Below are positions 11,952-52,428 of a stretch of DNA of 64,000 nt, in pieces. Both the position numbers and the translations under genes were made by a program. Each line of letters begins with the position of its first letter. The stretch's first letter is position 1. Under the pieces are notes generated by a model. It had not been told where the DNA came from, searched no databases, and saw only the letters and a program-made list of their open reading frames with translations. This DNA is from Sphingomonas arenae (lineage in GTDB: Bacteria > Pseudomonadota > Alphaproteobacteria > Sphingomonadales > Sphingomonadaceae). The stretch spans positions 806,001 to 870,000 of the forward strand of contig NZ_JAFFJU010000002.1 of assembly GCF_016924655.1 (NCBI RefSeq), given 5' to 3'.

Positions 11952-12018
11952 GCGCTCACCCTCAGCCTGTCGAAGGGTGATTCCTCCAGCACGCTTCGAC
12001 AAGCTCAGCGTAAGCGCG
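11952..12018. repeat. Diverged pair of 26-bp repeats between ku and ligD
   Basis: Left arm GCGCTCACCCTCAGCCTG followed by TCGAAGGGTGA and right arm CGCTTCGACAAGCTCAGCG followed by TAAGCGC form an imperfect inverted pair about 10 bp apart. They are diverged members of the GCGCTCASSCTGAGCCTG/TCGAAGSG family found again at 38380, 45688, 51712 and 52254. Confidence 0.85.
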
Positions 12019-38379: not shown

Positions 38380-38440
38380 GCGCTCACCCTGAGCCTGTCG
38401 AAGGGTTCTTCCGACGCTTCGACAAGCTCAGCGAGAGCGC
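38380..38440. repeat. Inverted pair of 26-bp repeats after the dehydrogenase gene
   Basis: GCGCTCACCCTGAGCCTG-TCGAAGGG at 38380-38405 and the reverse form CGCTTCGACAAGCTCAGCG-AGAGCGC at 38415-38440, 9 bp apart. Begins 8 bp after the stop codon and ends 4 bp before the convergent thioesterase stop, a position where the hairpin could serve as a transcript end. Confidence 0.88.
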
Positions 38441-45687: not shown

Positions 45688-45747
45688 GCGCTCACGCTGA
45701 GCCTGTCGAAGCGCTTTTCCGCCCTTCGACAAGCTCAGGGTGAGCGC
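45688..45747. repeat. Inverted pair of 26-bp repeats in the terS/endolysin gap
   Basis: GCGCTCACGCTGAGCCTG-TCGAAGCG (45688-45713) faces the reverse form CCCTTCGACAAGCTCAGGG-TGAGCGC (45722-45747) across 8 bp. The left copy uses the GCG ending and the right copy the GGG ending, so the pair is not self-identical. Confidence 0.88.
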
Positions 45748-45770
45748 TCGAAGCTAGAACTCGACCACTA

Positions 45771-45796
45771 GCGCTTACGCTGAGCCTGTCGAAGCG
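45771..45796 (+). repeat. Single 26-bp repeat copy
   Basis: GCGCTTACGCTGAGCCTG-TCGAAGCG, one base off the standard copy (TTACG for TCACG), unpaired with any reverse copy nearby. It lies 23 bp beyond the inverted pair. Confidence 0.85.
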
Positions 45797-51684: not shown

Positions 51685-51711
51685 CGACGCGCCAGGCAAC
51701 CTGAACACCTC

Positions 51712-51892
51712 GCGCTCACGCTGAGCCTGTCGAAGCGTGTCCCCACGCTCACGCTGAGCCGGTCGAAGCGTCCTCAACCACCCTTCGACAAGCTCAGGGT
51801 GAGCGCGTGGGGAGAAGCCCCCCGACCAAGCCGCGCTCACGCTGAGCCTGTCGAAGCGCGTCCCCACGCTTCACTCAACGCCCGTCGAAGCC
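51712..51892. repeat. Cluster of five 26-bp repeat copies downstream of hslU
   Basis: Copies at 51712-51737 (GCGCTCACGCTGAGCCTG start), 51745-51770 (ACGCTCACGCTGAGCCGG), 51833-51858 (identical to the first) and a degenerate one at 51866-51892 run forward; the copy at 51781-51806 (CCCTTCGACAAGCTCAGGG start) is reversed. They fill most of the 288-bp gap between hslU and the GIY-YIG gene. Spacing is irregular, unlike CRISPR. Confidence 0.9.
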
Positions 51893-51928
51893 CACTCCAC
51901 ATCCATGTCGCCCGCCCCTACAGCCCGC

Positions 51929-51954
51929 GCGCTCACCCTGAGCCTGTCGAAGGG
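51929..51954 (+). repeat. 26-bp repeat, left end of the GIY-YIG unit
   Basis: GCGCTCACCCTGAGCCTG-TCGAAGGG, a canonical copy ending 18 bp before the GIY-YIG start. It matches the reverse complement of the copy at 52254-52279 at 25 of 26 positions. Confidence 0.92.
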
Positions 51955-51972
51955 TGACCAGGACCAAAGCCG

Positions 51973-52275
51973 ATGCCCTTCTTCACCTACATCCTCCGCT
52001 GCAGCGACGGCAGCTATTACACCGGCCACACCGACGACCTCGACACCCGCATGGCGCAGCACGCGGTCGGCGAAGGTGCCAAGTACACGGCCGAGCGCCT
52101 GCCCGTGCAACTGCTCTGGTTCACGGACTGCCAGACGCGGGAGCAGGCCTTCGAGCTCGAGAAACAGCTGCAAGGCTGGTCTCGCCGAAAGAAGGAAACC
52201 CTGATGCGCGGCGACTTTCACCTGTTGCCGGAGCTCAGCCGGTCACGAGGTCACCCTTCGACAAGCTCAGGGTGA
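51973..52275 (+). CDS. GIY-YIG domain protein framed by repeats
   Basis: 100 residues, the small UvrC-like GIY-YIG group. FFTYILRCSDGSYYTGHT carries the first motif (YIL..YTG, where GIY-YIG is YxL-YxG-like in this subgroup), then DLDTRMAQHAVGEGAKYTAERLP with conserved Arg and Lys, and the metal-binding Glu in REQAFELEKQLQGW. The last seven residues, HPSTSSG, and the stop are encoded inside the repeat copy at 52254-52279, and another copy lies 18 bp upstream in opposite orientation. It may be a nuclease that handles the repeats, or a host nuclease whose end was overwritten by one. No ribosome site is evident. Confidence 0.88.
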   Translation: MPFFTYILRCSDGSYYTGHTDDLDTRMAQHAVGEGAKYTAERLPVQLLWFTDCQTREQAFELEKQLQGWSRRKKETLMRGDFHLLPELSRSRGHPSTSSG

Positions 52276-52279
52276 GCGC
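52254..52279 (-). repeat. 26-bp repeat, right end of the GIY-YIG unit
   Basis: CCCTTCGACAAGCTCAGGG-TGAGCGC, the reverse form. Its TCAGGGTGA segment encodes the last codons and TGA stop of the GIY-YIG gene. Confidence 0.92.
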
Positions 52280-52303
52280 AAAGGAGCCAAGCCTCAACCG
52301 CTT

Positions 52304-52400
52304 GCGCTCACGCTGAGCCTGTCGAAGCGCCGCCCTCGCGCTCACGCTGAGCCTGTCGAAGCGTCTCCCCACCACCCTTCGACAAGCTCAGGTTGAGCGC
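52304..52400. repeat. Three further 26-bp repeat copies
   Basis: Forward copies at 52304-52329 and 52338-52363 are identical to each other (GCGCTCACGCTGAGCCTG-TCGAAGCG), and a reverse copy with one change (GGTTGAGCGC) occupies 52375-52400. They fill the 153-bp gap before the DUF2459 stop. Together with the cluster at 51712 this makes ten copies within about 690 bp. Confidence 0.9.
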
Positions 52401-52428
52401 ACCGCCTCCTCACAGCCACCCCCGACCC

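Follow-up and report, generated by a model that had tools for sequence, protein, structure and literature searches.

A small GIY-YIG nuclease gene enclosed by inverted hairpin repeats in Sphingomonas arenae: a likely cognate enzyme–repeat pair in Sphingomonadaceae

The 64,000-nucleotide stretch of the Sphingomonas arenae genome analysed here (the window) carries a gene for a small GIY-YIG nuclease that stands alone between two inverted copies of a hairpin repeat, and comparisons across the family make it almost certain, as far as sequence can tell, that this kind of enzyme and this kind of repeat are paired. The explanation we favour, and consider moderately probable, is that of a nuclease with a cognate hairpin repeat, similar to RAYT/REPIN systems but built on an unrelated enzyme, in which the repeat would be cut and the repeat pairs and the gene mobilised. 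The parts of this explanation differ in strength: the GIY-YIG enzyme likely cuts the hairpin, and the chance that it also spreads the repeat appears about even. We read enzyme and repeat as a cognate pair because of the enclosure of the gene, the link between gene presence and repeat copy number, the match between enzyme clade and repeat class, the covarying hairpin, and the signs of movement.

The initial annotation described a 351-bp unit with inverted 26-bp ends (25 of 26 bases matching) around a single gene for a 100-aa GIY-YIG protein, whose last seven codons (HPSTSSG) and stop were supplied by the right-hand repeat, and all of this was upheld at the window gene. The unit (51929–52279) is 351 bp long, with arms that in fact measure 31 nt each and are 97% complementary, the sole arm-arm mismatch being a C/T difference within the loop. 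Its left arm (51929–51959, + strand) consists of the tail GCGCTC, the stem ACCCT/AGGGT and the loop GAGCCTGTCGA, and its right arm (52249–52279, − strand) is the inverted copy with the loop GAGCTTGTCGA; the gene occupies 51973–52275 (+ strand). PF01541 (GIY-YIG) was the only Pfam match of the protein (E 3.2e-17), a search of NCBIfam gave 0 matches, the closest solved structure by sequence was the UPF0213 protein BH0048 (1zg2, E 1.8e-17), and the two nearest solved relatives by sequence were both UPF0213. Tyr, Arg and Glu, which we take to be the catalytic residues of the GIY-YIG domain, are present together with the domain, as expected of a member of the superfamily. Among the 123 intact of 130 homologues surveyed below (the other seven are short or broken), Y6, Y16, G18, R26, H30, and E63 were kept in 118–123, with Y6, Y16, R26, and E63 kept in 118–122. 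The window genome has one further match to the GIY-YIG family and no others, located inside a 651-aa open frame that, judged by its size, is presumably UvrC. The HPSTSSG tail is not a mark of this gene group but arises from the overlap of the gene with its repeat: among the 123 intact homologues the stop lies inside the right repeat, with coding overlap, in only 13, the frame reads through the repeat in 67, the stop comes ahead of it in 19, and no such core is found on the right side in 24.

The unit is only the centre of a bigger repeat cluster, with eight exact core copies in 51723–52389, which is the densest group among the places listed for the window genome (100 of 117). Gene and cluster together form a 744-bp block (51685–52428) that lies between the gene we take to be hslU and its convergent downstream neighbour, also named by recognition. 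To the left of the unit lie a copy with the stem variant ACGCT/AGCGT (51708–51742, +), a degenerate copy (GAGCCGGTCGA; 51741–51775, +), and two further copies (51777–51806, −; 51829–51863, +), and to its right are three copies (52300–52334, +; 52334–52368, +; 52371–52400, −). The same repeat core occurs elsewhere in the window as a tail-out pair (38391–38429), a three-copy cluster (45699–45794), and a solo copy (11994–12006, −), all converted from contig coordinates. Across the 2.76-Mb genome, the 13-base core GAGCYTGTCGAAG was found 117 times (62 forward and 55 reverse), and the reversed control pattern once.

We derived the build of the repeat from 105 window-genome copies, taken from the window and from 50 regions surrounding core sites, of which 100 of the 117 were listed. 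These copies form a hairpin with a fixed 11-nt loop (GAGCYTGTCGA) and a stem of 5–6 bp, and the GCGCTC tail is kept on the 5′ side alone. At stem position 3, G-C (49 of 105) and C-G (47 of 105) are two near-equal compensated forms, and Watson-Crick pairing was seen in 97 of 105 copies against 48 expected; in the arms flanking homologue genes, stem position 4 was Watson-Crick paired in 127 of 135 against 48 expected. DNA folding also yielded the stem, weakly better than shuffles for three such repeats (z −1.0 to −1.6), with a z of −3.8 for a repeat of the CGTC type discussed below. The hairpin structure is thus drawn from the covariation, which recurs in the arms of the homologues, the folding signal being weak. 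Neighbouring copies formed 29 tail-out pairs, 28 of them at 27–62 nt and one at 318 nt, the latter being the gene unit, and the remaining neighbour pairs were 12 tail-in and 11 and 2 in direct order; the gene therefore sits in a pair type that is otherwise short. The 105 copies comprise 102 distinct 31-nt sequences, which gives no indication that the repeat multiplied in a burst very recently.

The enclosure recurs across the family. We surveyed 249 genomes, 114 of which gave a hit with E <= 1e-6, and read all 130 of the stronger loci listed plus the 19 listed weaker ones (weaker matches number at least 19). Flanking inverted repeats were scored by aligning the 200 bases on one side of the gene locally with the 200 bases on the other. 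Scores of at least 14 were reached at 110 of the 130 homologue loci and of at least 18 at 102, compared to 2 and 0, respectively, of 596 shifted positions in the strong and weak loci, and 2 and 1, respectively, of 200 other ORFs of the 130 loci. In the window itself the gene scored 28.5, and the runner-up among the 44 ORFs considered (>=60 aa, <=1500 bp) scored 10.5. The expectation that GIY-YIG genes are enclosed more often than other ORFs was therefore borne out (102/130 versus 1/200 at >=18), and random enclosure, like the earlier alternative of chance insertion beside a host gene, was rejected on the same comparisons. Cores of the two loop classes were found on both sides at 89 of the 130 loci, on one side at 25, and on neither at 16, and where they stood on both sides the nearest cores were tail-out (+,−) in 74 of 89.

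Outside the family, matches occurred in 73 genomes of the phylum; of the 20 best-scoring ones with a locus, 17 scored at least 14 and 12 at least 18, these scores being without a null of their own; many of these loci carry other repeats, e.g., CTCATCCTGAGG...TCGAAGGA. A search of genome contigs with the window protein as the single query returned six distant loci only. The flank score was 33 in a Methylobacterium record, in agreement with enclosure, 16.5 in a Sphingomonas parapaucimobilis record, and 8.5 at a broken homologue of S. paeninsulae. Flanking inverted repeats were not found at Bacillus subtilis yazA (score 8) or at a Salinivibrio homologue (score 9); UPF0213/YazA of Bacillus has the same domain and size as the window protein, which also matches 1zg2 in sequence, but yazA differs from the window gene in this lack of flanking repeats. 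A 41% homologue in a Bacteroidetes metagenome-assembled genome (MAG) (L033, 7950–8330) has a core with the same loop, GAGCTTGTCGA, upstream, and its 3′ end is overlapped by a related inverted stretch, with an inverted-repeat score of only 9; this locus hints that the enzyme-repeat pairing may reach Bacteroidota. Five other distant homologues, in MAGs of Rhodothermus, Neomarinimicrobiota, Bacteroidetes, and Ignavibacteria (L034–L038; for example L035, 2572–2950), are all found on the 3′ side of a gene for tRNA-Pro, tRNA-Val, or tRNA-Asp, at distances of 0 to ~350 bp. A second copy of the tRNA 3′-end sequence comes after the gene in L034, L035, and L037, and in L035 this copy is followed by the start of another ORF. 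They look like a GIY-YIG element linked to tRNA 3′ ends.

Gene presence and repeat copy number go together, in line with the earlier expectation that genomes without the gene have fewer repeats. Copies were counted as the sum of two loop patterns, TGAGCYTGTCGAAG and GAGCGWAGTCGA, and a genome with a 33-residue homologue fragment was counted as gene-less. The median copy number was 54 in the 85 genomes that have a strong homologue and 4 in the 164 that lack one (p 1.4e-24), and copies were higher with the gene in 33 of the 37 genera that contain both kinds of genome. There were exceptions, with at least 30 copies in 24 of the 164 gene-less genomes and fewer than 10 in 5 of the 85 gene-bearing ones; copies without a gene could arise because the gene could be lost before the repeats decay. 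The window species has 110 copies and the 60 other genomes of its genus have at most 32 each; a homologue is present in 17 of the 61 genus genomes, several of them with few copies of the window loop.

The type of enzyme also tracks the type of repeat. The GAGCYTGTCGA loop was in excess in all 30 genomes whose read homologues are flanked solely by it, three of them narrowly, and GAGCGWAGTCGA was in excess in 6 of the 8 genomes whose read homologues all carry GAGCGWAGTCGA flanks; in this test the class is read from the flanks, which add a few copies themselves, and the two patterns are unequal in length. On a protein tree of 142 rows and 88 columns, trimmed ahead of the repeat-coded tail and with 74 of 139 inner branches open, repeat class (classes B and C being assigned via simple patterns) changed 34 times against a shuffled mean of 75.9, with none of 200 shuffles as low; 16 of the 142 rows have no repeat class, and the 34 changes treat them as one class, dropping to 20 once they are removed. 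We had considered the weakly matching GIY-YIG genes as a negative control, and this use was ruled out, as 15 of the 19 are enclosed by another repeat. These genes form a sister GIY-YIG clade in the same family (L139–L157), and their repeats are mostly CGTC-tagged hairpins with the tag CGTC, a stem starting with AT, the tail CCA, and a short loop; under a strict hairpin test, such repeats flank 8 of the 19 genes on both sides and 14 on at least one. CGTC hairpins on both sides were found at 0 of the 130 loci of the window clade, and window-type cores on both sides at 0 of the 19 loci of the sister clade. On sequence grounds this is a double dissociation, in which two GIY-YIG clades pair with different repeats in one bacterial family.

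Between hslU and its neighbour, the GIY-YIG gene and repeat core were absent from all 31 genus mates examined (of 60), 29 of which keep the two genes <=1.5 kb apart, some with other DNA between them. Nine of the 31 (L220, L222, L223, L225, L230, L234, L237, L242, and L243) have ~450–770 bp of other DNA between hslU and its downstream neighbour, and insertions may therefore be common at this junction in general. When flanks of up to 1.5 kb were grouped by single-linkage clustering, ignoring side, the 130 homologues fell into 42 contexts, including one of 34 loci, one of 30, one of 12, and 31 singles. The context of 34 loci lies upstream of what we take by recognition to be trmJ (24 genera), a name that also appears in the annotation of a Sphingomonas record, and that of 30 loci upstream of what is presumably dnaG (21 genera). 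At the trmJ site the gene frame often continues beyond the right repeat and into the methyltransferase, so that the two resemble a single fused ORF (L006, L010, L014, L016, L027, L029, L032, and others), which the Sphingomonas record annotates as two genes. Of the 20 loci without a clear inverted pair, 15 belong to the trmJ context, 2 to the dnaG context, and 3 to other contexts, and 63 of the 66 loci outside these two sites have a pair. The initial annotation had named conservation of the protein in syntenic position in genomes lacking the repeats as evidence against its proposal, and this applies in part: there are two conserved sites with pairless loci (15/34 and 2/30), including a trmJ-site homologue (L073) without a pair in a genome (G048) with a single copy of the two loops counted, but most loci at both sites carry inverted pairs of their own class. 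An inherited host gene with unrelated repeats was rejected as a full explanation and stays under consideration for the two conserved positions.

Rearrangement was seen in another genus, where flank searches showed that three closely similar units, seemingly at different sites, occupy one site: both flanks align in three species, and the unit is inverted in one, with breakpoints lying in the arms (L015 versus L009 and L039). In a fourth species, in which one flank aligns, both arms are present with ~100 bp and no gene; in a fifth, again with one flank aligned, neither arms nor gene are present. Two more contexts seem flipped, judged by flank proteins only. The compared genomes represent one per species and are too distant for exact junctions; the inversion and the arms without a gene show rearrangement at the arms and gain or loss, without implying transposition. 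Matches were also found in 13 records of a plasmid collection and 23 of a phage collection, all at <60% identity; two of the plasmid matches are Sphingomonas megaplasmids that carry the gene in chromosomal-type order, and these records hence give no sign of a dedicated vector. The proposal of an autonomous unit was supported only indirectly, by the range of contexts, the one inversion, and the absence in genus mates.

Mechanistically, the cognate target of the small GIY-YIG nuclease would be the hairpin repeat around its gene. The enzyme would recognise the tail and loop in single-stranded DNA, whether on the lagging strand, in incoming DNA, or at an extruded cruciform, where it would cut. With less certainty, cut tail-out pairs might release, or prime copying of, the DNA between them, by which short repeat pairs might spread in trans across the genome. 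The gene, inside such a pair, might move, flip, or be lost likewise. A metal-dependent GIY-YIG nuclease would in this way replace the HUH transposase in a RAYT/REPIN-like scheme. The reading as a cognate mobiliser is weakened because 64 of the 130 homologues sit at two conserved positions, like inherited host genes, because of the 24 copy-rich genomes without the gene and the 5 copy-poor genomes with it, because 15 of 34 trmJ-site homologues have no clear inverted pair, and because of the 102 distinct sequences among 105 copies and the weak folding relative to shuffles.

The cutting step may have a precedent. A study of 2025 reportedly described Ssn, GIY-YIG nucleases that are specific for single strands and, in Neisseria, have a target present in many copies (the NTS repeat); the family is said to comprise small stand-alone proteins with thousands of homologues that have targets of their own. 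In Neisseria, cutting of single-stranded DNA at the repeat by Ssn is said to regulate uptake, recombination, or repair. If this account holds, the window gene is probably an enzyme of the same kind, being likewise small and stand-alone and having a cognate repeat in many copies, and cutting of the repeat has a precedent. GIY-YIG homing endonucleases are carried in an intron or intein or inserted at an allelic homing site; the window gene stands by itself between hairpin repeats. Compared to MITE and IS elements, the window unit similarly has a gene or short spacer between terminal inverted repeats, with both arms remaining without the gene at one site, but it lacks a transposase of a known IS class.

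Several features of the pair parallel described repeat systems. REPINs consist of two REPs in inverted order that RAYTs are believed to mobilise, and joint diversification of RAYT and repeat has been proposed (PMC3116915). The window system resembles RAYT/REPIN in that the enzyme gene adjoins matched repeats and the repeats are tagged hairpins that occur largely as inverted pairs, including at the gene (29 tail-out pairs among 105 copies). It differs in that the enclosed gene is GIY-YIG, by its only Pfam match, rather than an HUH Y1 transposase, and in that the repeat has the tail GCGCTC, not GTAG, with a stem of 5–6 bp and an 11-nt loop. In Di Nocera et al. (2013; PMC3733652), tagged hairpin repeats are split into GTAG repeats, which are RAYT-linked, and CGTC repeats, which "apparently lack a dedicated transposase" and of which none was seen flanking a transposase gene. 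The latter are short tagged hairpins, mostly of Alphaproteobacteria and often dimers, with a CGTC tag, an 8–9 bp stem, and a 4–5 nt loop, and Neisseria CGTC-1 corresponds to dRS3 (PMC3733652). The window repeat, with its GCGCTC tail, shorter stem, and longer loop, falls outside this superfamily, whereas the repeats of the sister clade agree with it in tag, AT-first stem, and short loop (8 of 19 genes on both sides). The term GIY-YIG has 0 occurrences in the text of PMC3733652 and in that of PMC6006769; neither a link between GIY-YIG proteins and REPs nor, in the text, the sequence TTCGACAAGCTCAG was found in the literature searched, which covered few subscription papers. Relative to an Ssn precedent, the present comparison may add that enzyme clades match repeat classes, that gene and arms form an enclosed unit, and that a GIY-YIG clade is linked to CGTC REPs.

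The strongest rival, which we regard as unlikely though worth serious attention, accepts the cognate pair but has the enzyme mobilise nothing: its cutting of single strands would govern uptake, recombination, or repair, and the repeats would spread otherwise or by selection as sites. The enclosure, copy-number, tree, and dissociation evidence fits this equally well, the two stable positions of 64 of the 130 homologues look like those of a resident host function, and the equivalence of dRS3 and CGTC-1 REPs (PMC3733652) coincides with a sister clade flanked by CGTC REPs. However, the many contexts, the inverted unit, and the absence from the genus mates examined suggest that the unit relocates, and the tail-out bias at the gene is as expected of a mobile unit. 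Far less probable is a reading in which small genes land by homologous recombination between repeats that are no more than ordinary hot spots, with no enzyme specificity. Window-genome repeats do often form inverted pairs, and the inversion at one site could be plain arm-arm recombination, but other ORFs are rarely enclosed (1/200 at >=18, and 0 of 43 other ORFs in the window), repeat class tracks the protein tree, and the occurrence of two GIY-YIG clades with different repeats in the same family strongly disfavours such hot spots. Slightly more improbable again is a role of the repeats at the RNA level, as terminator or mRNA-stabilising hairpins for the gene and its neighbours, with an indirect copy-number link: the structure could form in RNA and many REPs are plausibly transcribed (PMC3733652), but this would leave unexplained why inverted hairpins stand both upstream and downstream and why repeat class varies together with the nuclease. 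Chance insertion of an abundant repeat (117 core copies in 2.76 Mb) beside a host gene is refuted by the shifted positions (0/596 at 18), the copy-number link, and the other-ORF comparison, and we give it next to no weight.

Returning to a cognate nuclease that mobilises its repeat, a broader proposal is possible, which we advance tentatively and at somewhat less than an even chance: GIY-YIG nucleases might be the missing dedicated enzymes of CGTC REPs, of GAGC-loop repeats, and of the CTCATCCTGAGG-type repeats of other Alphaproteobacteria, forming an independently evolved counterpart of RAYT/REPIN in which a metal-dependent enzyme would mobilise repeat pairs and its own gene without a covalent intermediate. 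With a GIY-YIG gene as the flanked gene, and with its clades matched to repeat classes, there is a candidate answer to the question of what mobilises the CGTC half of these repeats, and pairing with GIY-YIG enzymes could explain some of the abundant short repeats in alphaproteobacterial genomes.
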